This document shows positions 2,693-37,083 of a DNA stretch of 37,279 bases, one piece after another. Under the pieces are notes generated by a model. That model did not search any database, had not been told where the DNA came from, and saw only the letters and a list, made by a program, of their open reading frames with translations. The DNA lies in the IMG/VR virus record IMGVR_UViG_3300013126_000098, positions 1 to 37,279 of that record, one strand, 5' to 3'. The stretch comes from a virus. The position numbers and the translations under genes were made by a program. Within the stretch, counting starts at the first letter, position 1, and every line of letters starts with the position of its first letter.

Positions 2693-4144
2693 ATGACAAC
2701 AAAATTTTCAGATTATCTTAGTACTACTGTTGCAGAAGATGCAAGAAAGATTATTGATTATTATGATGGGAAACAAGATGATTATCTAAAAAAGCAATTA
2801 TCAGATATTCAATCAGGTAGAAAAGATTGGGAAACAAGAGGTCTTATTCCCAGAAAAAGAAATATTACTAAGATGATTATCAATAAGTCTGGGTTATTGA
2901 CATCTGACAAATTACCTAATATTGAAGTGCATAATATTAATGGAGATATTGATGAAGATGCAACTAATCTATTATCATCAATATTGTTGAAAGCAGATTA
3001 TGAAGATACAGTTAGAAATATAGATCCAATTATCAGAGCTATTGCTACTGCAAGGTGGTTAGTTCAATGGGATAATACAAAATCAAAATTTGTATTTGAT
3101 ATTCTTGGTCTTCATAATGCAGCTACTGTGATTGATGAATATAAGAATTTGATTATGCTGATTTATATGACAAGTCAGAGTAAAGCTAAGACTACTTATA
3201 GAGTATTCACAGATGAATTGATTCAAGATATTGAAATAAAAGAAAATGGTGTAGAAGCTATTACTAAATCAATACCAAATCAATACGGTATGATACCAAT
3301 GGCTACATTTCATGATACTATTAAACCAAGAATGGGGGATTATAATATACCTTCAACTGATATAGTTCAATTGAATGAAATCTATAATCTTCATATTACT
3401 GATTCTGAATATGCAATCAAATATATGAAGTATGGTACGTGGGTAACTAACTGTGAAGTACAAGGCACATCTCCAGTATCTAATTCAGTTCCAAGTGAAT
3501 CTTATAATAGAGCATTACCATTCCAAGCTCCTAATACAAATGAAACAGAAGTTATAATTGGCCCATCTCAAGTAGTTCATTTGAATACAATGGGAGTTGA
3601 TTCCGTCTATTTTGAATGGAAGTCTCCTGATATTCAATTACAACCACTTGATGATATTATTACTTCATGGGTTCATTCTTATGCAAATGACTGGTCTGTT
3701 AATATCAAAACAGCAGGTCAAGCAAGTGCTACTTCAGGATTCCAATTAGTAGTAGAAGAAATTGATAATCTTGAATTGAAAAAAACAAGAGCTAAACAAT
3801 TTTCAGCTGGATTAGAAGAAGTATGTAATCTTGTTATGAAGATTACTAATATGGTATCTCCTGGTACATTCAATGAAGAATTGAAACCAGTTATAATCTT
3901 TAGTAATCCAATATTGCCAGTTGATGAAACTCAAGAAGAAAATGTTTGGTCATTGAGATTACGTGAAGGTAGAGCATCAAGATTAGAATACTTTATGACT
4001 AAGTTTGATCTAACAAAAGAACAAGCAAAAGAAAGAATAAAAGAAATAGATGAAGAAAGAAACAATTCTCAAGTAGCTACATTAGCTCAAATGAAGAATG
4101 TACCAAATGCACCTAATGTACAAAAATTTACTGTAGGTAATTAA
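2693..4144 (+). CDS. Portal protein
   Basis: A 483-residue protein directly after terL and ahead of scaffold and capsid, the canonical place for the portal. The opening (KIIDYYDGKQDDYLKKQL..., then NITKMIINKSGLLT) matches the SPP1/phi29-like portal family pattern: a short N-terminal helix with Y-x-G, then a conserved N-x-x-K-x-I-I-N/D-x-x. The end is a charged helical barrel region (about residues 400-470). As a dodecamer it would form the DNA entry and exit vertex. It has an AAGGA ribosome site and its stop overlaps the next start (TAATG). Confidence 0.9.
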   Translation: MTTKFSDYLSTTVAEDARKIIDYYDGKQDDYLKKQLSDIQSGRKDWETRGLIPRKRNITKMIINKSGLLTSDKLPNIEVHNINGDIDEDATNLLSSILLKADYEDTVRNIDPIIRAIATARWLVQWDNTKSKFVFDILGLHNAATVIDEYKNLIMLIYMTSQSKAKTTYRVFTDELIQDIEIKENGVEAITKSIPNQYGMIPMATFHDTIKPRMGDYNIPSTDIVQLNEIYNLHITDSEYAIKYMKYGTWVTNCEVQGTSPVSNSVPSESYNRALPFQAPNTNETEVIIGPSQVVHLNTMGVDSVYFEWKSPDIQLQPLDDIITSWVHSYANDWSVNIKTAGQASATSGFQLVVEEIDNLELKKTRAKQFSAGLEEVCNLVMKITNMVSPGTFNEELKPVIIFSNPILPVDETQEENVWSLRLREGRASRLEYFMTKFDLTKEQAKERIKEIDEERNNSQVATLAQMKNVPNAPNVQKFTVGN

Positions 4145-4437
4145 TGCCAGGTGTTCATATAACAATTACTAATGTATATGATCTTGAAAAGAAAGATTTT
4201 TGGGACATAGTTAGTAGAATTTATGACAGACTAATAATCAGAACTCCATATGATACTGGTGAATGTACTAATGCATGGGAGATTGATTATGTTTCAAGAG
4301 ATGAAGTAGAGATATGGAATGATACTGAATATATTTCTTATCTTGAAGACGGCCATTCAAAACAAGCACCAAATGGATGGATTGAGAATACACTTAATTC
4401 ATACAAAGAAATTGTGTATGATTATTTCAATACGTGA
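4144..4437 (+). CDS. HK97 gp10-like head-tail/tail-completion protein
   Basis: A 97-residue protein with the short signature of the HK97 gp10-like family: TPYDTG at 34-39, W45, and a YLEDGHSKQAPNGW block at about 66-79. In that family this fold sits at the head-tail joint. It overlaps the portal stop by one base, so the two are co-translated. The position is odd: such proteins normally lie just before the tail terminator, and this genome has another gene of the same broad type there (12566-13003). A dedicated role at the portal or neck is possible. Confidence 0.7.
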   Translation: MPGVHITITNVYDLEKKDFWDIVSRIYDRLIIRTPYDTGECTNAWEIDYVSRDEVEIWNDTEYISYLEDGHSKQAPNGWIENTLNSYKEIVYDYFNT

Positions 4438-4445
4438 TAAATAGA

Positions 4446-4473
4446 TTTACATAAGTCTGAAATAAAATATCTA
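4446..4473 (+). promoter_or_regulatory. Possible promoter before scaffold/capsid genes
   Basis: In the 70-base gap before the scaffold gene there is TTTACA (4446-4451), a 16-base spacer, then TATCTA (4468-4473). The -35 box is identical to that of the early promoters further right in the genome, but the -10 box matches only partly. It would give scaffold and capsid an extra source of transcript, consistent with the terminator after the capsid gene. Confidence 0.35.
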
Positions 4474-4507
4474 ATATCAATCTTTTCCTGTAGGAGAACC
4501 ATTCTGT

Positions 4508-5149
4508 ATGTCAACAGAAAATAATACTAATGAGAAATCCACTCAAACCTCTGTAGAGGAATCAAAGGATGCAGCAACTAAAACTTATACTGAAGAAGCA
4601 TATTTGAAAGTGCTTTCTGAAAAAGATCAGCTAAAAAGTAAGTTGCGCAAATTGGAAGCAGATACTCAATCAATTGCTGATATTCAATCTAAGTATGATA
4701 CTTTATTATTAGAAAAAAGTAAATTACATGAAGATTTGACACAGGCAAGAAAAGAAAAAGTAGATGCAGTAAATGAATATAGAAACTTTAAATTAGATTC
4801 AGTTTTATCTACCGCCCTGGATGCAGCTGGAGCTAAATCAAAAAGTACTGTATTGAAATTACTTGATAAGAATCTAATCCAATTTGATGATAACGGAGAA
4901 GTTGTAACTGATTCCGTTGTAGCTGCTATTCAAGAATTACAAAAGACTGATAGTATCCTATTTGGAGATATCAAAGACCCAAAGTCATCATCAAGTGGGA
5001 ATCCACCCCCTGGGAAGAACTTCTCAGATACAGATGCAAAACGTGCGGGTCAAGGTGATACAAAGTCTGCATATATGACTGAATTAGCTGCAGCTAAAAC
5101 AAAAGAAGAATACATGGCCGTAGCTGAAAAGTACGGTATCATTTCATAA
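4508..5149 (+). CDS. Prohead scaffolding protein (putative)
   Basis: 213 residues, acidic and predicted to be almost wholly helical. A disordered Thr/Glu-rich start is followed by a coiled coil at about residues 28-95 (LKSKLRKLEAD..., LLLEKSKLHEDL), a compact middle part, a Ser/Gly/Pro linker (PKSSSSGNPPPG) and a helical tail. It lies directly between portal and major capsid protein. Composition and position are those of phage scaffolds, which nucleate capsid assembly and leave before DNA enters. The ribosome site is TAGGAG about 10 bases before the ATG. No specific family is proved. Confidence 0.75.
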   Translation: MSTENNTNEKSTQTSVEESKDAATKTYTEEAYLKVLSEKDQLKSKLRKLEADTQSIADIQSKYDTLLLEKSKLHEDLTQARKEKVDAVNEYRNFKLDSVLSTALDAAGAKSKSTVLKLLDKNLIQFDDNGEVVTDSVVAAIQELQKTDSILFGDIKDPKSSSSGNPPPGKNFSDTDAKRAGQGDTKSAYMTELAAAKTKEEYMAVAEKYGIIS

Positions 5150-5171
5150 ATTATTTTTGAGGTAATTCAAA

Positions 5172-6104
5172 ATGGCTTTTACTACAAACCTATCCGGTAC
5201 TGCTCAAGTTGATGACAGTATCATTGCTTTATATGATAAAGCATTCATTACAGAAGTTGCACAAAATGATGTTGTTGATCCATTTGTAACTGTAAAGAAA
5301 CAACTAAATGCTAAATCAATTTCATTCCCACGTTATGGCCAATTATCATTAGCTACTACACCATTAACTGAAACAGAAGATGTAGTATCTGAAGCACTTG
5401 GTGATTCTCCAATTCAATTGATTCCAGTTGAACATGGTAAAGTAGTTACTACTACTAAACTTGCTTCATTGCAAACTGGTGGAATAGTTGATATTGCGGC
5501 TGCTCAATTAGTTGGGCAAAACGTTGCAGCTACTTCAAATGCCCTTGCTGCTAATGCCTTACTTGCATCTACTAATACATTGACTGTGGATGGTGGAGCT
5601 ACTGCAGACTTTACTGCAGGTGACATTGTTACTCCTTCTTTCTTGAACAAATTGTACAACAAATTGTCACGTAATGGTAATGGAGTTCCTACTTTTGGTG
5701 GTCTTTATATCTTGATGGCACATGATGACGTAATCAATGACTTACGTGAAGGTGTTGATGCTGGCTCTTGGTATGACGTATCTAAGTACCAAAATGCACA
5801 AGCAATCTACAACAATGAAGTAGGTACATTCAAAGGCTTCCGTATCATCCGTAACAACTACTTAGCCGGTGTTGATCAATCAGGTGCAGGTACTGTTGAT
5901 GTATATCCAATTGTAGCATTTGGTTACAATGCATTGGGTAAAGCTGTTTCATATACACCTTCCATGGTTGCAACTGGCCCATTTGATAAATTGGCACGTT
6001 TTGCTAACTTAGGCTGGTATGGTGTCATGAAATATGGCATTATTGAACAAGACAACTTGTGGGTTGGTTATGTTGCTTCTTCAGTAGGCAATAACGCTGC
6101 ATAA
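5172..6104 (+). CDS. Major capsid protein, N4-gp56-like
   Basis: 310 residues. The start (ALYDKAFITEVAQNDVVDPFV), the ISFPRYGQLSLATTPLTET strand and the block GGLYILMAHDDVINDLREG...SWYDVSKYQNAQAIYNNEVGTFKGFRII are the recurring pattern of the N4-gp56 branch of HK97-fold capsid proteins. The protein would form the icosahedral shell. Codon use shifts in this gene: more C-ending codons (CGT, AAC, TTC) than its neighbours, as expected for the most abundant product. It has a good GAGG ribosome site and is followed at once by a terminator hairpin, so it is probably made in excess. Confidence 0.9.
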   Translation: MAFTTNLSGTAQVDDSIIALYDKAFITEVAQNDVVDPFVTVKKQLNAKSISFPRYGQLSLATTPLTETEDVVSEALGDSPIQLIPVEHGKVVTTTKLASLQTGGIVDIAAAQLVGQNVAATSNALAANALLASTNTLTVDGGATADFTAGDIVTPSFLNKLYNKLSRNGNGVPTFGGLYILMAHDDVINDLREGVDAGSWYDVSKYQNAQAIYNNEVGTFKGFRIIRNNYLAGVDQSGAGTVDVYPIVAFGYNALGKAVSYTPSMVATGPFDKLARFANLGWYGVMKYGIIEQDNLWVGYVASSVGNNAA

Positions 6105-6117
6105 TTGATAAGAATAG

Positions 6118-6150
6118 TGGAGAGGTATCTTTATGGTATCTCTCCATTCT
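6118..6150 (+). terminator. Rho-independent terminator after capsid gene
   Basis: TGGAGAGGTATC (6118-6129) pairs over 12 positions (two of them G-T) with GGTATCTCTCCA (6135-6146) around the 5-base loop TTTAT. A T-rich run follows (TTCTTATATT). It lies 14 bases after the capsid stop and probably acts as a partial terminator that lowers expression of the connector genes. Confidence 0.8.
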
Positions 6151-6167
6151 TATATTAGGAGTTATGC

Positions 6168-6344
6168 ATGGCAAGAAAATCAAAACAAGTAATTGAATCT
6201 TCTCCAAAAACACAATTATTCAAAGTAATATCTCCACTAAAAGGTAGATTCAATACTAAAAACTTAGATTATAAAGTTGGAGATATAATTGAATTGACTT
6301 TATTTGAGAAATACATTTATAGAAATTATATTGAGGAAGTATAA
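6168..6344 (+). CDS. Small head-tail connector-region protein (58 aa)
   Basis: A 58-residue basic protein (MARKSKQVIE...FEKYIYRNYIEEV) with a good ribosome site (TTAGGAG) 5-8 bases before its start. Its stop overlaps the next start (TAATG at 6342-6346), which supports it as a real gene. The core YKVGDIIELTLFEKYIYRNYIEE resembles the short phage proteins of the form 'Y-x-x-G-D-x-I-x-L...L...YI' often found near connectors. A similar small gene lies at 13000-13158. Function unknown; a minor connector or capsid-vertex component would fit. Confidence 0.7.
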   Translation: MARKSKQVIESSPKTQLFKVISPLKGRFNTKNLDYKVGDIIELTLFEKYIYRNYIEEV

Positions 6345-6853
6345 TGGCAATTGAATCTACATCAGGAAGTAATACAGCTAATAGTTATGTTAGTTATGCA
6401 GAATCTTTAGCATATATGATTACCCGCGTAGGTGCAAGTAAATGGGTTGATCTTGAACAAGTTGAAGCAGAAGCATATCTTATTACTGCTGCAAGACAAA
6501 TTGAATTAGCTCAATGGAGTGGATTCAAATCAAGTAAAACTCAATCTTTGAATTGGCCAAGATCTCAAGTATATGACTATGAGAATAATGTAATATCTGG
6601 AATTCCACAAAAACTAAAAGATGCTCAATGTGAATTAGCATATTGGTATTTTACAGAACCAGACAGATTCTTGAGTGATACTGATTTAACTCAAATCAGT
6701 TCATTATCAGCAGGACCATTGGATATCCAAGTAAATTCAAAACCTCAATTATATCCAGCAGTTGTAGATCAAATATTGAATGCAATTGGACCAGGATTAT
6801 TATTGAAATCAGCTAATAATTCAACTTTTACTCCTGTTAGATTTGTTATATGA
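6344..6853 (+). CDS. Head-tail adaptor (DnaT-like/Ad1-type connector)
   Basis: 169 residues. The first two thirds match the helical adaptor pattern often annotated 'DnaT-like ssDNA-binding' in phages: NTANSYVSYAESLAYM near the start, a block of helices with ITAARQIE, W at the turn (QWSGFKSS), then LNWPRSQVYD and IPQKLKDAQCELAYWYF. Despite the family label, proteins at this position attach to the portal ring and form the first connector layer. The C-terminal 50 residues are extended and may bind the next ring. It overlaps its neighbours at both ends by 1 and 4 bases. Confidence 0.75.
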   Translation: MAIESTSGSNTANSYVSYAESLAYMITRVGASKWVDLEQVEAEAYLITAARQIELAQWSGFKSSKTQSLNWPRSQVYDYENNVISGIPQKLKDAQCELAYWYFTEPDRFLSDTDLTQISSLSAGPLDIQVNSKPQLYPAVVDQILNAIGPGLLLKSANNSTFTPVRFVI

Positions 6854-24209: not shown

Positions 24210-27200
24210 ATGGCTTTAGCTACAAATTCAACATTAGGAACTATAGTATTAGCAGGTGACTTTTATGGAAGTGATCCTGCTAATCCGTCTTTAGCCCCAA
24301 GTGGAGTTACTCCCGGTCAATCTACTTTCTTTTATTCAATAGTAGTAGATACTAAAGGAAGAACTGTCTATTATAAAGATTATCCACAAAGTACTCCTGA
24401 AGATTGGACTAATATCAAAAACTTATTTGGTGGGGTTCCAATTGGACCTGCAACTCCAAGTTCAGTTGGAGGAATAAAAGCTGGAACTAATATTGATATT
24501 GATACAAATGGGCTAATATCAATTCCTGATGCAAGTGGATCAGCTAAAGGTTTAGTTCAAATTGGAACTAATATCAATTTGACAGGTAATACAATTTCAG
24601 TAGCTGATGCAAGTACTTCAGTAAAAGGTGTAGTTCAAATTGGAACTAATATCACAGCTACATCAGGTACAATATCAATTCCTAATGCAAGTTCATCAGC
24701 TAAAGGTTTAGTTCAAATTGGAACTAATATCAATTTGACAGGTAATACTATATCAGTAGCTGATGCAAGTACTTCAGTAAAAGGGTTGATTAAAATTTCT
24801 GAAGGAAATGCTTCAAATCAATATGTAATTGGAAGTGGGGTTTTTGATCTAAAAAGAGCTTCTTCATCTAATCTTGGAGCTGTTCAAATTGGAGATAATA
24901 TCAATGTATCTTCAGGTACTATATCAGCTGCTACTGCAAGTACTTCAATAAAAGGTTTAGTTCAAATAGGAGATAATATTACATCAACTAATGGTCTAAT
25001 ATCAGCTTCTAATGCCAGTACTTCTGCTAAAGGTGTAGTTCAAATTGGTTCCGGATTCTATAATACCGGGACTGGTTATTATATCTTCAAATTCCATATT
25101 GCTAATCCGCTAAATCATTCAGTAATTGAAACTTTATCATTTAGAACTGATACACAAGTATTATTCAATGAAACTTTGAATCAAATAGTTCCAGAATTGT
25201 CAAGAAGCGGAAATATCATAAGATATAATCTTTCATTAGACGATGCAATTGCAGCAGGAACTTTAGTATCTCCAGTTATTGAAACTCTAACAGTAAATGG
25301 AGATAATGTAAATGCTGGTTTTATTGTAGCTAGTGGAGATCCAGTTCCAACATCTGATGCAGCAATTTATTATGAAATTGGAATTGAAGATGGTATTATA
25401 TCTGGGCCACCTCATGCAACTAAAGATGGGGTAAATCCTGAAACTTATGGAACATTTTGTATAAGTGATACTACTGATTTAGAAGTAGTTAATAGAACAC
25501 TTCAAATCAAAATGGCTTCTACATCTCAAAAAGGATTATTTCAAATAGGAGATGGTTTTAGTGTAGCTCCATCAGGATCATATACTGAAGTATCTGCTAA
25601 TATTGCATCTGATACTACATTAGGTTTAATTAAGTATGATACTAATAATTTCTATTTGTCATCAGATATTTTAATGCCAAATTATGCTGGATCTTCAATG
25701 GCCGGTATTATGAAAGTGAATTCTGCTGCTGATTTTGGAATAAATTATACAAATGGAGCAATATCTTTCAAAACCGCAAGTCAATCAGTTTTTGGATTAT
25801 GTAAAAGTGGTCAATACTTAGAAATTACAAATGGGGTATTAGATGGAATAAAAGCAACTGATACTACAATTGGCTTATTTACTTTATATCAAGGATTTGA
25901 CACTTTAGTTCCTGGAACTCCAATAAAACCATTAGAGGCAAGTTACTCAACAAAAGGAGTATTCTCAGTTGGTAATGGATTTATTGCTACAACTAATCAA
26001 ATTGTTGCAAGAACTGCATTACCTTCATTAATAGGTCTTGTACAAATTGATACAACTAATTCTCTTTTACAAATAGATGCAAATGGGGTATTGAGTTCTA
26101 ATTTTACTAATTTAGCTTCTACAACTAATTATGGTTTAGTTCAACCATCAACAAGTGATTTTGATTTGATTGGTGGAGTATTATCACTAAAAGAATCAAA
26201 ATTTGCATCACATTCAAATTTTGGTTTTTTGAGACATGTTTATAATTATGGTGTTGGAACTGAAGGCGGTCAAACTGTAAGTAATATTGGATTTACTGCA
26301 TCAGGGGCATCTGATACTGCAACACTAATGTATGCAAAAGCATCAGCTTCTGCTCAATTTGGATTAGTGAAACCTAATTCTTCTTTTTCATATTTGAATG
26401 AAGGTCTAATATTAGCTAATCCAATAGCTTCTGCTTCTAATCTTGGTTTGGTAAAAGTAGGAACAGGATTAGAAATTTCTAATCAATCATTATCACGTAT
26501 TGGAGGATCTATTGCTTCTGCTTCTAATCTTGGTTTGATAAAAACAAAGACATATGATAATTTTGATTATAATACATCAACTGGAGAATTATCAAGAATA
26601 AATGCATCAACTTCAAAATTTGGATATTTTACTACTTCATCAAGTATATTAAAAGATGTAAATGATGAATTATATGCTGCAACTGCAACAGATGATGTTG
26701 CAGGACTTGTTATGACTGGAAGCGGACTTTTGAATGACGGTTTTGGAGTTATAACTTTACCTTGGGATTATGCTACTTCAAGTGTTGCTGGTAGATATTG
26801 TTTAGCAGATCCATACCCAACAACTACTACACAAACAGATACTTATAGGAATGAATATGTAAGTATTGGAACTACAGGTAATAAATCAATTGCTAATTTA
26901 GGATTTTTGTCTGAAGCAGAATCAAAAAGATCTACATTATGGCGTGATTACTTATCAGTTAATAGTGATGTGGATGGGAATTGTTATAATTTAAACCCAA
27001 TGAAACCTACGTATGATCTAAGAATACAAGATTCAACATCTCCAACACCAAAAACATTTTTGATATCATTTGATATGACAAACATTCCAATTGATACTAT
27101 ATTATTAAAAAATATCAGTAAGATTTACAAATATCCAGTTACCAACACTGGCATATATCAAACTGATTTTAATAATATTATTCCAGTTGAATCAGCAAGA

Positions 27201-30658: not shown

Positions 30659-30686
30659 TTTACATCTGATCAAAAAAGTTTATAAT
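30659..30686 (+). promoter_or_regulatory. Early promoter D
   Basis: TTTACA (30659-30664), 16-base spacer, perfect TATAAT (30681-30686). The bases TTTACATCTGATCAAA and the leader ending TGATTATCACTGAGGAG are shared with the promoter before 32772, so the two are duplicates. It drives the gene at 30736. Confidence 0.8.
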
Positions 30687-30735: not shown

Positions 30736-31590
30736 ATGAACAGATATCAAAAAGCCCAAGCTGCAGCTTCTAAAGCAAGAAAAGAAGCAAAGAAAGCTGC
30801 TAAAATAGAAGCTCTTTATAATAATGAAGCTTCTAATGAAAGAAGATTTCCAGAGAATGTAAGAGTGATTGTTCATGGTGAAACTGATTATATTGAGTAT
30901 GTGTATTCCAAAGAAGATTTGGAAGATACAAAAATTTTATCTAAATCACAAATGGGTGATTTAGCAGGCTTTATTGGCTACAAATTAGATAGACCTGACC
31001 TTGGTTCTAAAACTCTAATGAATGTAATGTCAAAAGAAGAACATCATGAATTAGGTATATGTATTCTTACTTATGTGGCTAATACCCAAGCAATTGCTTC
31101 AGCTACATTAGTCAAATGCCCAGTAATGCATTATGTAGCAGCAAGGTCTAATATCAATAACATATGTGGTTATTCATTGAGAATTTGGGGTATAGCTTCA
31201 TTTGAACATTTGAGAGTTCATGCTCAAGTTGAATTGATGAGTATTGTAGGCAAACCACAAACTCAAGTCATTTTGAAAAAAGCATATTTGAATAATGAAT
31301 ATCATACTTCATCAATGTGGTACACAGTTTTGAACATGCTTTTTGGTGGAAATAAAAAAGCTACTAAATTTGAAGTTGATGTTGCAGACATACGTAATCC
31401 TATTCAAGAAGAAGTGAAAGTTGAAGTTCCTATTCAAGAAGAAGTTAAACCTGCAAGTGGTTGGCATTATGTAATGGCTGAAGAACACAAGAAACATATC
31501 AGTGAAGCATTGACAGGTATGAGATACAAAACTAAATCACGTGAAGGCATTGAATGGCATTATGTTGATGGTAAAAAAGAGTGGTTATAA
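30736..31590 (+). CDS. Early protein with NUMOD3-like C-terminal motif
   Basis: 284 residues. The first 30 are a basic Ala/Lys-rich helix. The middle part is alpha/beta without known motifs (EELGICILTYVANTQ-like core, IWGIASFEHLRVHAQVEL). A duplicated PIQEEVK linker (about 226-240) precedes a C-terminal segment EEHKKHISEALTGMRY (249-264), which resembles the NUMOD3 DNA-binding motif (KKKISEALKGK) of homing endonucleases. Flanking WHYV repeats (243-246, 274-277) are unusual. It has a GAGGAG site. A DNA-binding early protein is a reasonable inference; there is no nuclease domain visible. Confidence 0.65.
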   Translation: MNRYQKAQAAASKARKEAKKAAKIEALYNNEASNERRFPENVRVIVHGETDYIEYVYSKEDLEDTKILSKSQMGDLAGFIGYKLDRPDLGSKTLMNVMSKEEHHELGICILTYVANTQAIASATLVKCPVMHYVAARSNINNICGYSLRIWGIASFEHLRVHAQVELMSIVGKPQTQVILKKAYLNNEYHTSSMWYTVLNMLFGGNKKATKFEVDVADIRNPIQEEVKVEVPIQEEVKPASGWHYVMAEEHKKHISEALTGMRYKTKSREGIEWHYVDGKKEWL

Positions 31591-31687
31591 TCTGATACCT
31601 ACTTCACAAAATCCCAAGGACGGGATTTACATCTACATCAACCAGTATAAAATATACACATATTCAAACAACAGCGGAGACACTAAG
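31591..31687 (+). promoter_or_regulatory. Early promoter cassette A
   Basis: AAATCCC-AAGGAC-GGGATTT (31609-31628) is a perfect 7-bp inverted repeat whose right end overlaps the -35 box TTTACA (31626-31631). After 16 bases comes TAAAAT (31648-31653), then a leader ending AGCGGAGACACTAAG before the ATG. The whole ~95 bases recur as cassette B with very few changes. The inverted repeat is well placed for an operator. Confidence 0.8.
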
Positions 31688-32287: not shown

Positions 32288-32385
32288 AAACTGATACTCA
32301 CTTCACAAAATCCCAAGGACGGGATTTACATCTACCCCAACCAGTATAAAATATACACATATTCAAACAACAGCGGAGTAATAAG
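32288..32385 (+). promoter_or_regulatory. Early promoter cassette B
   Basis: Near-identical copy of cassette A: inverted repeat AAATCCC-AAGGAC-GGGATTT (32308-32327), -35 TTTACA (32325-32330), 16-base spacer, -10 TAAAAT (32347-32352), leader with ACAGCGGAG before the ATG at 32386. Confidence 0.8.
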
Positions 32386-32661
32386 ATGAGCAAATACCTT
32401 GATATAACAATACACACAAACTTCAAAAATCTAAAAGCACAAAAGTTTTTTGATTTGCTTGATGAGTATGAAACAAACTACATCAATGAATGGTGTTATG
32501 CGGATATTTCTTTGAGGAATGGAGTTCTAAGTATCTTACTTGAGGTGGATCATGATGAAGAACATGATGATAGTGAAGTTCCACCTGAATGGATTGAAAA
32601 CTTCAAAAAAGAGTTACTTGAGTTTTTGGTTGAATATGACCTTGTCAAAATCAAAAAGTAA
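32386..32661 (+). CDS. Small acidic early protein
   Basis: 91 residues, strongly acidic (ILLEVDHDEEHDDSEVPPEW at about 51-69), with a strand-helix-strand start (YLDITIHTNFKNLKAQKFFDLLDEY). Acidic early phage proteins of this size are often DNA mimics or inhibitors of host factors (known for other phages). That is only a suggestion here. It is expressed from cassette B and followed by cassette C. Confidence 0.7.
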   Translation: MSKYLDITIHTNFKNLKAQKFFDLLDEYETNYINEWCYADISLRNGVLSILLEVDHDEEHDDSEVPPEWIENFKKELLEFLVEYDLVKIKK

Positions 32662-32771
32662 TCTGATCCCTACTTCACAAAATCTCAAGGACGGGATTTA
32701 CATCTGATCAAACTGGTTTATAATTTACACATATTCAAACAAACTGCTGATTATCACTGAGGAGAACTACC
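32662..32771 (+). promoter_or_regulatory. Early promoter cassette C
   Basis: Third copy: AAATCTC-AAGGAC-GGGATTT (32680-32699; one pair changed to T-G), -35 TTTACA (32697-32702), 16 bases, perfect TATAAT (32719-32724). Its first half matches cassettes A/B and its second half (TCTGATCAAA... TGATTATCACTGAGGAGAAC) matches promoter D, so it is a recombinant of the two cassette types. Confidence 0.8.
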
Positions 32772-33368: not shown

Positions 33369-33410
33369 TTAGTTACACACACATGGACGTGACTTTTATT
33401 GGAGCAAAAA

Positions 33411-33764
33411 ATGAAGTATAATCCTCAACGCAGACAAATTACAATGGGTGATCTTGCTGATTTGGCAAGCTCATTTGATCCTAACTTGACTTTGCTATTC
33501 ACAAGTGAAGATAAAGATGATAAAGATTTCTGTTTTATTACCGGCTTCTGTGATCCAGGTAATACTCCATGGTGTGGAAATGATGAGTATGCAAAAAATA
33601 ACTCACTCATTATCATTCAAGATCATTGTCTTGTAAGTGATTATGAACGTTTGGGTGCTGATGCATTCATTGTTCAAGGTTCAACTAATGTCATGGAACT
33701 TCATGAAAAGATGAAAGAGTTCAATAAATCAAAAATTGAAATACATTTGGATAACATCTTATAA
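33411..33764 (+). CDS. Small early protein, unknown
   Basis: 117 residues from the ATG that has GGAG at a spacing of 6. It has a helix with TMGDLADLASSFDPNLTLLFTSED, a cysteine-containing loop (CFITGFCDPGNTPWCGND), then LIIIQDHCLVSDYERLGADAFIVQGST. The alternation of strands and helices suggests a small alpha/beta fold. It is followed directly by a long hairpin (33772-33833). Function unknown. Confidence 0.7.
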   Translation: MKYNPQRRQITMGDLADLASSFDPNLTLLFTSEDKDDKDFCFITGFCDPGNTPWCGNDEYAKNNSLIIIQDHCLVSDYERLGADAFIVQGSTNVMELHEKMKEFNKSKIEIHLDNIL

Positions 33765-33771
33765 AGTTAGA

Positions 33772-33833
33772 AAGAAGAGCTTGGAGCAAAAAGATATTCC
33801 TGCCAGGGTAAATCAAGTCTCCAAGCTCTTCTT
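33772..33833 (+). ncRNA. 15-bp perfect hairpin with 32-nt loop (RNA element or processing site)
   Basis: AAGAAGAGCTTGGAG (33772-33786) is perfectly complementary to CTCCAAGCTCTTCTT (33819-33833). The 32-base loop holds a small CCTG-CC-AGG-like hairpin. It is 7 bases after a stop codon and 10 bases before promoter E. No T run follows, so it is not a classical terminator. An RNase III-type processing site, a stable RNA or a 3' protector are possible. This and the next two entries cover the 380-bp gene-free stretch 33765-34144. Confidence 0.6.
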
Positions 33834-33843
33834 CATCTTCTGA

Positions 33844-33872
33844 TTTACATTCCTCTCACAATGTTTTATAAT
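33844..33872 (+). promoter_or_regulatory. Promoter E
   Basis: TTTACA (33844-33849), 17-base spacer, perfect TATAAT (33867-33872). The start of transcription would be near 33879, at the first base of the structured region. It lacks the cassette inverted repeat but uses the same -35 hexamer. Confidence 0.75.
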
Positions 33873-33877
33873 ATCTC

Positions 33878-34088
33878 CTAAATACAGAATAACATATTTG
33901 CAATGGCTCATGCAGCTCTGAAAGGCCGCCACTCCATTCAAAACCACAAGACAAGCAATTTGTCTATTTCATAATTATAAGATGACATCACCTCCTACGT
34001 AAAATAAGGTTGGCTGTGTGGGTCATTGCAAATATGTTATATTGTATCATTCACAGTTCTTGGCGGCTCTGTGCTCAACTTATTTTAC
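33878..34088 (+). ncRNA. Candidate structured RNA / leader upstream of the polymerase-like gene
   Basis: Immediately after promoter E lie three pairs of complementary arms. Arm 1 spans 33889-33917 and 34012-34040: 17 perfect pairs (TAACATATTTGCAATG core) continuing with G-T pairs to almost 29. Arm 2 is GCCGCCA (33925-33931) and TGGCGGC (34061-34067). Arm 3 is GTAAAATAAG (33999-34008) and CTTATTTTAC (34079-34088). Local hairpins AGACAA-GCAAT-TTGTCT and CACAG...CTGTG are also present. The order 1-2-3-1'-2'-3' is not nested, so arms 2 and 3 would form pseudoknots or alternatives. No good open frame fills it (a 23-codon ATG frame at 33903 lacks a ribosome site). Confidence 0.5.
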
Positions 34089-34144
34089 ACATGCTCAACT
34101 TCACATCAAAAACTTTCCAAAATAAGATTTCAAAATTACAATCA

Positions 34145-35341
34145 ATGGCTCTTTCCCAAATAGGAAGTGGGTTACATGTTGAGATCTATACCAATGACAT
34201 TAGAAAGGTTCTACCTCATTATAATGAAGACAATCATATTGATGAATATCTGTTTAGGTCAATGTTCAAAAGATGTCTGCATGTAAAATATAAAGTTACA
34301 GATGTAAAACTTGACATTCCAGGATATCCATACACATATCAATTTCAATGGGCAAATTTGCAATGGTTCTTACAAGAAGCAAAGCTAATCAAACCCAGAC
34401 TTGAACATAAAGTATCTTCTTTCATTGAACAAAAACTAACTTCTTCTGAAGTAGAGCTTGAACAAAATGTCAAGTCAAGAAATTACTTATATGCAAATCA
34501 TTTCAAGAAGAACTTTCCAAATTACAAAGCACAAAAGAAAAATCCACGGGTAAATGATAATTGCCCAAGATATATCCAACATACTGATCAGATACCAAAG
34601 GGTGCCATGAAATACTTATTTCCAAATGAATTTGAATATGACATAGAAGCAGCTGCTTATGCATTAGTTTTTCAACATGCTGTCTTATATGCTGAATGTG
34701 ATTATAATTTCCAGCTATTGCACATATGTCATCAAGATAAGAATATGATGAGGTTAGGCTTAGCAGAGGAACTGAATTGTTCTATTGATATTGCTAAGTT
34801 AGTTTTAGCAGCTGTGCTCTATAGAAGATCTATTCCTCAAATTGAATACTCACGTAATTTCCAAAAAGATCTTATCAAGAATAACTTTCATAGGTATAAC
34901 TGGCCTTATCTTCAAGAAGCAATGAGAAAGTCTGAAATACTAAACACATTGTGTTTTGAATTGAAAATCATGTGGGAATATCTTGAAGCAGAATGGGAAG
35001 ATACAAATGATCAAGTTGCAAAAGACAAGTTTGTAAAGTGGTATGAAAAAGAAGAAATGCATTATGATATAGATGAAGCTGAAATGAAAGAAGTAAAAGC
35101 AGGATCATGGAGATATTCCTCATGTGCATTTAGATCATACATTTATTTTGAACTTGAAAGAAAAATTATTGATATTTGTATTGATTGGTTAGAAGAACAT
35201 GGATATGACAAGTATTATACAAAGCATGATTCATTTTGGTGCCCGTATGATTTATCAATGAATGAACTAAATGATTTGCAAAAAAAGATTACAAATGAAA
35301 CTGGATATGATGTGCAATTCAGCAAACAGCAATTCAACTAA
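34145..35341 (+). CDS. Minimal family-A-like polymerase / replication protein (candidate)
   Basis: 398 residues from the ATG at 34145; no good ribosome site, and the frame is open upstream into the structured region. Three blocks are in the order and spacing of a polymerase palm/fingers: YDIEAAAYALVFQ (motif A-like, D166 and E168), IAKLVLAAVLYRRS (motif B-like, K218), and, after an ELERKIIDICIDWLEEHGYD helix, KHDSFWCP (motif C-like, H361, D362). HDSF also occurs in motif C of single-subunit RNA polymerases. There is no exonuclease domain. It is the only replication enzyme candidate in the window. Function is inferred from motif order. Confidence 0.5.
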   Translation: MALSQIGSGLHVEIYTNDIRKVLPHYNEDNHIDEYLFRSMFKRCLHVKYKVTDVKLDIPGYPYTYQFQWANLQWFLQEAKLIKPRLEHKVSSFIEQKLTSSEVELEQNVKSRNYLYANHFKKNFPNYKAQKKNPRVNDNCPRYIQHTDQIPKGAMKYLFPNEFEYDIEAAAYALVFQHAVLYAECDYNFQLLHICHQDKNMMRLGLAEELNCSIDIAKLVLAAVLYRRSIPQIEYSRNFQKDLIKNNFHRYNWPYLQEAMRKSEILNTLCFELKIMWEYLEAEWEDTNDQVAKDKFVKWYEKEEMHYDIDEAEMKEVKAGSWRYSSCAFRSYIYFELERKIIDICIDWLEEHGYDKYYTKHDSFWCPYDLSMNELNDLQKKITNETGYDVQFSKQQFN

Positions 35342-36910: not shown

Positions 36911-37052
36911 TACAATATCAGCATGAGGAATATGCATAAAATGAGAAGTTTTCATTTTCTAATAGGAGTTTGCTAATAATGCTAAGAGATAATGCGGTTA
37001 GCTTTGCCTGGGTCAAATTGGATTCCTCATGCTGTGATTACCAATCCAATTT
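36906..37052 (+). ncRNA. Structured region with two mutually exclusive hairpins before dam
   Basis: CAGCATGAGGAAT (36919-36931) is perfectly complementary to ATTCCTCATGCTG (37022-37034). AAATTGGATT (37015-37024) is perfectly complementary to AATCCAATTT (37043-37052). The two share 37022-37024 and the second encloses the right arm of the first in its loop, so only one can form. A local hairpin AAAATGA...TCATTTT lies inside. The layout is that of an attenuator or riboregulator upstream of the methylase. No promoter is obvious at its start. Confidence 0.45.
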
Positions 37053-37083
37053 ACCCGCTCCAAGTCAGTGTATAGTTTGTTAG
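36979..37083 (+). CDS. Possible 34-residue Cys-containing microprotein
   Basis: ATG with AGGAG ten bases upstream, 34 codons (MLRDNAVSFAWVKLD...PAPSQCIVC). A CC pair and a C-x-x-C end might bind a metal. The same bases form the complementary arms of the structured region, so the frame may be fortuitous. The ribosome site is the best argument for it. Confidence 0.3.
   Translation: MLRDNAVSFAWVKLDSSCCDYQSNLPAPSQCIVC

Follow-up and report, generated by a model that had tools for sequence, protein, structure and literature searches.

The locus at 33878-34088 raises the question of whether a stretch without an evident gene, lying between a promoter and a polymerase-like gene, encodes a structured RNA, and what such an RNA may do for the virus. 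The DNA analysed as a whole, hereafter the window, is a virus record of 37,279 bases, linear and possibly a fragment, with 33% G+C. Its siphovirus-like structural genes extend to ~30 kb, orphan early genes occupy 30.7-37.2 kb, and its terminase shares up to 40% identity with terminases of Salmonella and Escherichia siphoviruses. A sequence-only reading had proposed here a candidate new structured RNA driven by its own promoter. This proposal is supported and strengthened in this study, since the same architecture occurs in six contigs whose sequences cannot be aligned while the pairing is kept. Overall, it is highly probable that an early transcript begins with positions 33880-34088, that this part of it forms a conserved knotted RNA of ~120-210 nt, and that this RNA represents a new family present in at least six divergent, uncultivated phages.

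The element, its promoter, and the gene that follows

The promoter (Table 1) places the predicted transcription start at ~33879, and the long helix P1 begins at 33882, ~3 nt further on. The promoter is of the same type as the early-region promoters at 30659 and 32697; with this resemblance and the near-complete consensus match, the claim that the element has its own promoter is supported, the start itself being predicted. No terminator candidates were seen in the window between the RNA and the downstream gene.

Three complementary pairs at 33882-34088 interleave in the order 1-2-3-1'-2'-3' and end 2 nt 5' of the ATG. Arms, positions, and order are all as the sequence-only reading had described them. 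P1 has a core of 29 unbroken pairs including G-U (33889-33917/34012-34040), 17 of them consecutive and perfect, and reaches 36 positions, 35 of which are paired, when one mismatch is allowed. P2 has 8 bp (GGCCGCCA/TGGCGGCT) and P3 has 10 bp, all perfect (GTAAAATAAG/CTTATTTTAC). The GCCGCC and GGCGGC motifs that had been placed in two local hairpin loops were found there, in PA and PB, respectively; GGCGGC occurs four times in the window compared with 0.44 expected. The statement that the RNA has no open frame worth the name needs a small correction, as a 23-codon ORF without a ribosome site lies inside it at 33903-33974. A match to the 16S anti-Shine-Dalgarno sequence (ATCACCTCCT, at ~33987-33996) was rejected as a common element: the relatives lack it, and CACCTCC shows no enrichment. 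With no Rfam match, there is no indication of a ribozyme.

Table 1. Positions of the promoter, the RNA helices and hairpins, and the downstream gene in the window.
Feature	Position	Strand	Sequence	Basis or remark
Promoter	33844..33872	+	TTTACA-17-TATAAT	consensus match 11/12
P1, 5' strand (long helix)	33882..33917	+		complement analysis and topology scan
Local hairpin PA	33920..33939	+		loop displays GCCGCC (CCGCC)
P2, 5' strand	33924..33931	+	GGCCGCCA	complement analysis, topology scan, shuffle test
Local hairpin PC	33949..33965	+	AGACAA-GCAAU-UUGUCU	GCAAU pentaloop also in G33 and G44
P3, 5' strand	33999..34008	+	GUAAAAUAAG	3 nt 5' of the P1 3' strand
P1, 3' strand	34012..34047	+		pairs with 33882-33917
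Local hairpin PB	34052..34073	+	CACAG-UUCUUGGCGGCU-CUGUG	loop displays GGCGGC
P2, 3' strand	34061..34068	+	UGGCGGCU	complement analysis, topology scan, shuffle test
P3, 3' strand	34079..34088	+	CUUAUUUUAC	positions -12 to -3 relative to the start codon
Small family A-like DNA polymerase gene	34091..35341	+		416 aa, motifs YDIEA and KHDSF; homologues, G33 model

The nested fold of the element has an energy of -62.7 kcal/mol, compared with -40.2 +/- 3.8 in shuffles (z -5.9). With P1 given, P2 and P3 together contribute -30.8 kcal/mol by stacking energies against -18.3 +/- 3.2 in shuffles, one of which was as good among 1500; none of 1000 reached this value in a separate run. The element is also the best match in a scan of both strands of the whole contig (-84.9, the runner-up among independent places on the + strand scoring -48.9).

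The window holds other repeated or complementary sequences. Three near-identical units, CTGATNCCTACTTCACAAAATCCCAAGGACGGGATTTACATCT...TA(T/A)AAT, at 31590-31660, 32290-32360, and 32660-32740, each precede one of three early genes, and in each a small hairpin (AAATCCC/GGGATTT) overlaps the -35 box. Immediately 5' of the promoter of the RNA, a 15-bp perfect hairpin occupies 33772-33848; its loop contains GTAAATCA, complementary to TGATTTAC 3' of the hairpin, as well as a copy of the leader TTGGAGCAAAAA, which precedes the gene 33399-33764. A second interleaved complement pair lies in 36914-37060, where 36914-36931 matches 37022-37039 (18 nt, 89%); the latter stretch sits in the loop of another hairpin, and a 34-codon ORF that has a ribosome site overlaps the region. 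Finally, 19 bases at 888-906, at the end of the gene 287-904, are perfectly complementary to 34035-34053, which is part of the P1 3' strand with its flank. A complement of at least 17 bases was seen in 1 of 100 control stretches, and this one has no counterpart in the other five members described below.

The gene at 34091 lacks a Shine-Dalgarno sequence, in contrast to its neighbours, as had been noted from the sequence. Its frame is open upstream to a TTG at 34010, and the homologues fit the ATG at 34091. Homologues were found in four other contigs (G13, G14, G33, and G35). The window protein matches that of G33 directly (23% over 229 residues, E 1.6e-5), and the small proteins of G13 and G14 share the window's motif A (Y-D-[IVM]) and motif C (H-D-[SG]-F). 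Four homologues carry Y-D in motif A and H-D-[SG]-F in motif C; G35 has E-Y-D-G-F. A model of the G33 homologue, built from four sequences (mean pLDDT 50), resembles residues 605-829 of Taq Pol I (Z 6.7 over 160 residues), a Z below 8 being no proof and the model confidence being modest. This match covers the palm and fingers, and the best 18 matches are all family A polymerases. The single-sequence AlphaFold model of the window protein is usable at the C-terminus only; Foldseek alone with the polymerase model gave nothing significant, and a Pfam search with the protein gave no match. Since motif A, motif C, and fold agree, the earlier description of the gene as polymerase-like is sound, and the model and homologues in other contigs suggest a family A (Pol I-type) DNA polymerase-like product. 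In NCBIfam, the protein matches incFII_RepA best, with E 0.045 and 12.9 bits where the cut-off is 446.9; this was regarded as a chance match. A retron non-coding RNA was also rejected: motifs A and C of the neighbouring gene (HDSF/HDGF) are of Pol I type, its model is Pol I-like, and no reverse transcriptase match was obtained.

Members with the same architecture in other phages

At the DNA and protein levels, neither the window RNA nor the polymerase had a match among cultured phages, plasmids, IMG/VR, or GTDB genomes. Twenty-nine other contigs were reached through capsid, terminase (TerL), and tail proteins and homologous polymerases, giving 30 with the window; polymerase searches from G13 and G14 led to G33 and then to G35, and profile searches with the polymerases added no more contigs. 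Rfam 15 gave no match at the gathering threshold for the whole window or for the loci that hold the other five members (L105, L047, L046, L108, and L110, the last from G44), and a permissive Rfam scan of the region returned only snoRNA and rli51 scores at chance level. The phage and pseudoknot passages of a 2010 survey of candidate structured RNAs describe no fitting RNA (PMC2864571).

In G14, G33, and G35, a long hairpin lies directly 5' of the polymerase gene, and its loop pairs with the following stretch in interleaved order. A topology scan of both strands of the 30 contigs ranked the window first among non-coding places and added G44 and G40; elsewhere, only repeats within the coding sequences of tail fibre and collagen-like genes scored comparably. 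Since G35, G44, and G40 were first seen using P2 and P3, a selection blind to the pseudoknot is a fairer basis for tests. It required a non-coding hairpin whose P1 has an energy of -35 kcal/mol or lower, preceded at 3-9 nt by a -10 hexamer with 5-6 matches, and over the 30 contigs it returned exactly the same six members, one each, with 21-29 Watson-Crick pairs. As the hairpin is palindromic, either strand could be the RNA; the opposite strand passes the thresholds in the window, G14, G35, and G44, there without a -10 hexamer and with a weaker pseudoknot.

The five relatives, all from uncultivated phages, share the architecture of the window RNA. P1 spans 23-30 positions in them and starts no more than ~4 nt from the predicted start site, P2 forms between the loop of a tail hairpin and the P1 loop, and P3 is a second helix joining tail and loop. 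Members are 116-207 nt long, with P1 of 23-36 positions. In the common 5' part, the start is followed at once by the P1 5' strand, PA displaying the P2 5' strand, and often PC, whose pentaloop is common to three members. The common 3' part consists of the P3 5' strand, P1', 0-6 nt, PB, mostly 2-5 nt, the P3 3' strand, and the next gene. The P3 5' strand stands directly 5' of P1' in the window, G33, G35, and G44, an arrangement modestly above shuffles (chance 10-24% each).

Over the six members, P1 has 149 Watson-Crick and 13 G-U pairs in 167 positions, P2 has 44 and 5 in 49, and P3 has 47 and 3 in 50. PB, a stem of 4-5 bp around the P2 3' strand, is present in all six with 29 of 29 positions paired. 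Between members, the P1 arms are at best 39-62% identical without gaps, and no stretch can be aligned. The sequence of P1 has thus turned over while its pairing has stayed, which is the opposite of the uncompensated breaks in relatives that would have spoken against the arms. The same knotted fold is written with different letters in five other phages, and therefore the shape is kept by selection.

When loop and tail were shuffled with dinucleotides preserved, the P2+P3 score was reached in 1 of 1500 shuffles for the window, 0 for G33, 4 for G35, 5 for G40, 27 for G44, and 51 for G14 (1500 each). The combined p is 2.7e-9 for the six members and 1.3e-7 for the five without the window. A hairpin at 25209-25292 of G47 was rejected as a seventh member, its P2+P3 being at chance (611 of 1500 shuffles). 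The length of P1 also rises with the total length of the tail linkers (r 0.87, n=6), a value that partly rests on the P3 helices picked by hand in G14 (UUUGUG/CACAAG) and G40 (UCAUUU/AAAUGA), where the automatic choice differs. A fold in cis needs such a relation, and therefore pairing in cis is favoured.

Genomic context and possible functions

The next gene encodes the small family A-like DNA polymerase in four of the six members (the window, G14, G33, and G35). In G44 and G40, other genes follow, each with a ribosome site of its own ~45 nt further on, and neither contig yielded a homologue of the polymerase; a gene downstream of the RNA in G44 (L110, ~5799-6410, minus strand) encodes a primase-like protein (IMIDVDNDI...), named by eye. 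In G13 and its near copy G71, the polymerase is present and no such element was found at the thresholds used, the RNA being either truly absent there or present in a far weaker form. Therefore, the tie to the polymerase is only partial. In G13 (L042), the polymerase gene lies at 4039-5106, the gap at 5106-5574 has no long ORF, and the terminase is the most similar to that of the window (60%). Contact of P3 with the start or ribosome binding region is seen in the window and G14, is partial in G33, and is missing in G35, where the ribosome site lies outside P3, and in G44 and G40. The RNA stands where gene direction switches in G33, G35, G44, and G40, and heads the transcription unit. Extremes of the cumulative GC skew do not coincide with its position.

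A cis-acting leader that sets how stable the message of the early (replication) operon is and how well it is translated appears to be the most likely function, although it may about as well prove wrong. The missing terminator before the gene in the window, the RNA at the head of the unit, and P3 at the start region in the window and G14 all point to it. In the proposed mechanism, the first strand of P1 would start at or within ~4 nt of the transcription start, P3 could stack atop P1, and P2 would run beside P1. Judging from its length, the tail may be just long enough to follow P1, pair as P2, and reach P3 if PB opens; the loops perhaps make their first contact while PB is still closed. Structure at the 5' end can protect a message from 5'-end-dependent decay, and a 5' end locked in P1 may shield this one. 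However, a long near-perfect RNA helix is a likely substrate of RNase III, and a helix of 23-36 bp therefore argues against simple stabilisation. The opening and closing of P3 beside the ribosome binding region would gate translation of the first gene where both meet, here the polymerase, possibly through binding of a phage protein, by analogy with the operators of T4 gp32 and gp43 mRNA. Such gating is not a shared function, because the genes of G44 and G40 differ and the ribosome site of G35 is free. G44, G40, G13, G71, and G35 speak against an operator specific for the polymerase, and therefore a leader of the whole message is favoured.

A more far-reaching reading is tentative, possible rather than probable: a new class of phage RNA that functions by three-dimensional shape alone. 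It would form a double pseudoknot from the first transcribed nucleotides before different early operons in a group of uncultivated siphovirus-like phages and act as an independent RNA, on RNA polymerase, the ribosome, or a phage polymerase, or by oligomerising. Rather unlikely in turn is a stand-alone RNA acting in trans, cut from the message with P1 as the RNase III site, which would act on a host or phage protein or form an oligomer through the complements of P2 and P3. Such a role is consistent with the persistence of the RNA where the downstream gene differs (G44 and G40), with a shape conserved without sequence, and with the precedent of the phage RNAs GOLLD and ROOL, which assemble by kissing loops (PMC12286853), but no terminator of its own was seen in the window, P3 adjoins the start codon there and in G14, and the fact that longer P1 helices come with longer linkers speaks for pairing in cis. 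A dimer or ring model, prompted by the scant room for P3 in cis beside PB and P1, is, given this relation, kept within the trans-acting alternative only.

The promoter and the neighbouring polymerase also suggest a replication primer or origin RNA. RNA II of ColE1 is extended by DNA polymerase I as a replication primer; the present RNA would similarly be extended by the adjoining Pol I-type polymerase, with its fold deciding whether the hybrid stays. Its own promoter, the family A-like polymerase next to it in four of six members, and the switch of gene direction at the RNA in four contigs are in line with this role. It is nevertheless improbable: a primase-like gene takes the place of the polymerase in G44, no homologue was detected in G40, and G13 possesses the polymerase but not the RNA. 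In addition, the extremes of GC skew lie away from the RNA, and an arrangement of G-rich and C-rich direct repeats like that of RNA II was not noticed.

In plasmid-type control of the kind seen in IncI/IncB/IncL/M, the pseudoknot is blocked by an antisense RNA that binds to the kissing loops. The logic is the same, with a replication gene preceded by two loops joined as a pseudoknot. UUGGCG(G) stands in one loop of the window and G40, and the window has a promoter-like site on the minus strand (34003-33974, 10/12). By eye, however, no comparable antisense promoter was seen in G33, G35, or G44, the loop sequence is not shared, and searches with the protein gave no replication initiator at a significant score. 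Thus, the earlier suggestion of a plasmid-type antisense regulator was not upheld, and we regard such control as very improbable. It is just as hard to expect that the RNA is a leader for processive antitermination, acting on the RNA polymerase of the host from the beginning of the early transcript, like HK022 put: it is promoter-proximal, structured, and independent of the next gene, but P1 alone has 23-36 bp without conserved sequence, against a put RNA of ~70 nt with two stem-loops and shared sequence, and no strong terminators that would need read-through were found downstream of the RNA in the window. Overall, the evidence favours the cis-acting leader over the trans-acting RNA, the latter over the primer, and the primer over both antisense control and put-like antitermination.

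Significance and comparison with known systems

Structured RNA families are usually found through sequence homology and covariance models. Such searches miss the present family because topology is kept with essentially no alignable sequence, and it could be reached only by phage gene synteny and a topology scan. Phage early regions thus hold knotted RNAs that have not been described, in this case coupled to a putative minimal family A-like DNA polymerase. The six natural variants are ready for tests of structure and function.

Several known systems share features with this RNA. In phage T4, gp32 and gp43 repress their own translation, through a pseudoknot and through a hairpin plus ribosome site, respectively (PMC3014915). 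As in these operators, a structured leader of an early replication gene touches the ribosome binding region in the window and G14 and partly in G33; however, the T4 operators comprise a few tens of nt, whereas the present RNA has 120-210 nt, a long 5' P1, and two interleaved helices, and precedes other genes in two members. Kissing RNAs take part in replication control of I-complex plasmids (PMC10724649). Like the rep leaders of IncI/IncB/IncL/M, the RNA lies upstream of a replication gene and has a loop-loop pseudoknot (PB loop with P1 loop/PA), kept in six contigs, with a UUGGCG-type loop in two members; unlike them, it has a long 5'-terminal P1, no homologue of a RepA/RepZ-type initiator, no conserved loop sequence, and, on inspection of the other members by eye, no conserved antisense promoter.

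Found 3' of early promoters, put RNAs work on RNA polymerase by themselves (PMC9378689). Like that of HK022, the present RNA is structured, opens a predicted early phage transcript, and has no fixed downstream gene, whereas its length, its P1, and its lack of conserved sequence set it apart from the put RNA, as described above. GOLLD and ROOL are likewise phage-encoded structured RNAs with kissing loops (PMC12286853), but many GOLLD RNAs exceed 800 nt and the present RNA is much smaller; both families are in Rfam, which has no entry matching the RNA described here. Therefore, the T4 operators, the I-complex RNAs, put, and GOLLD/ROOL each share a feature with this RNA, and none of them fits it in full.
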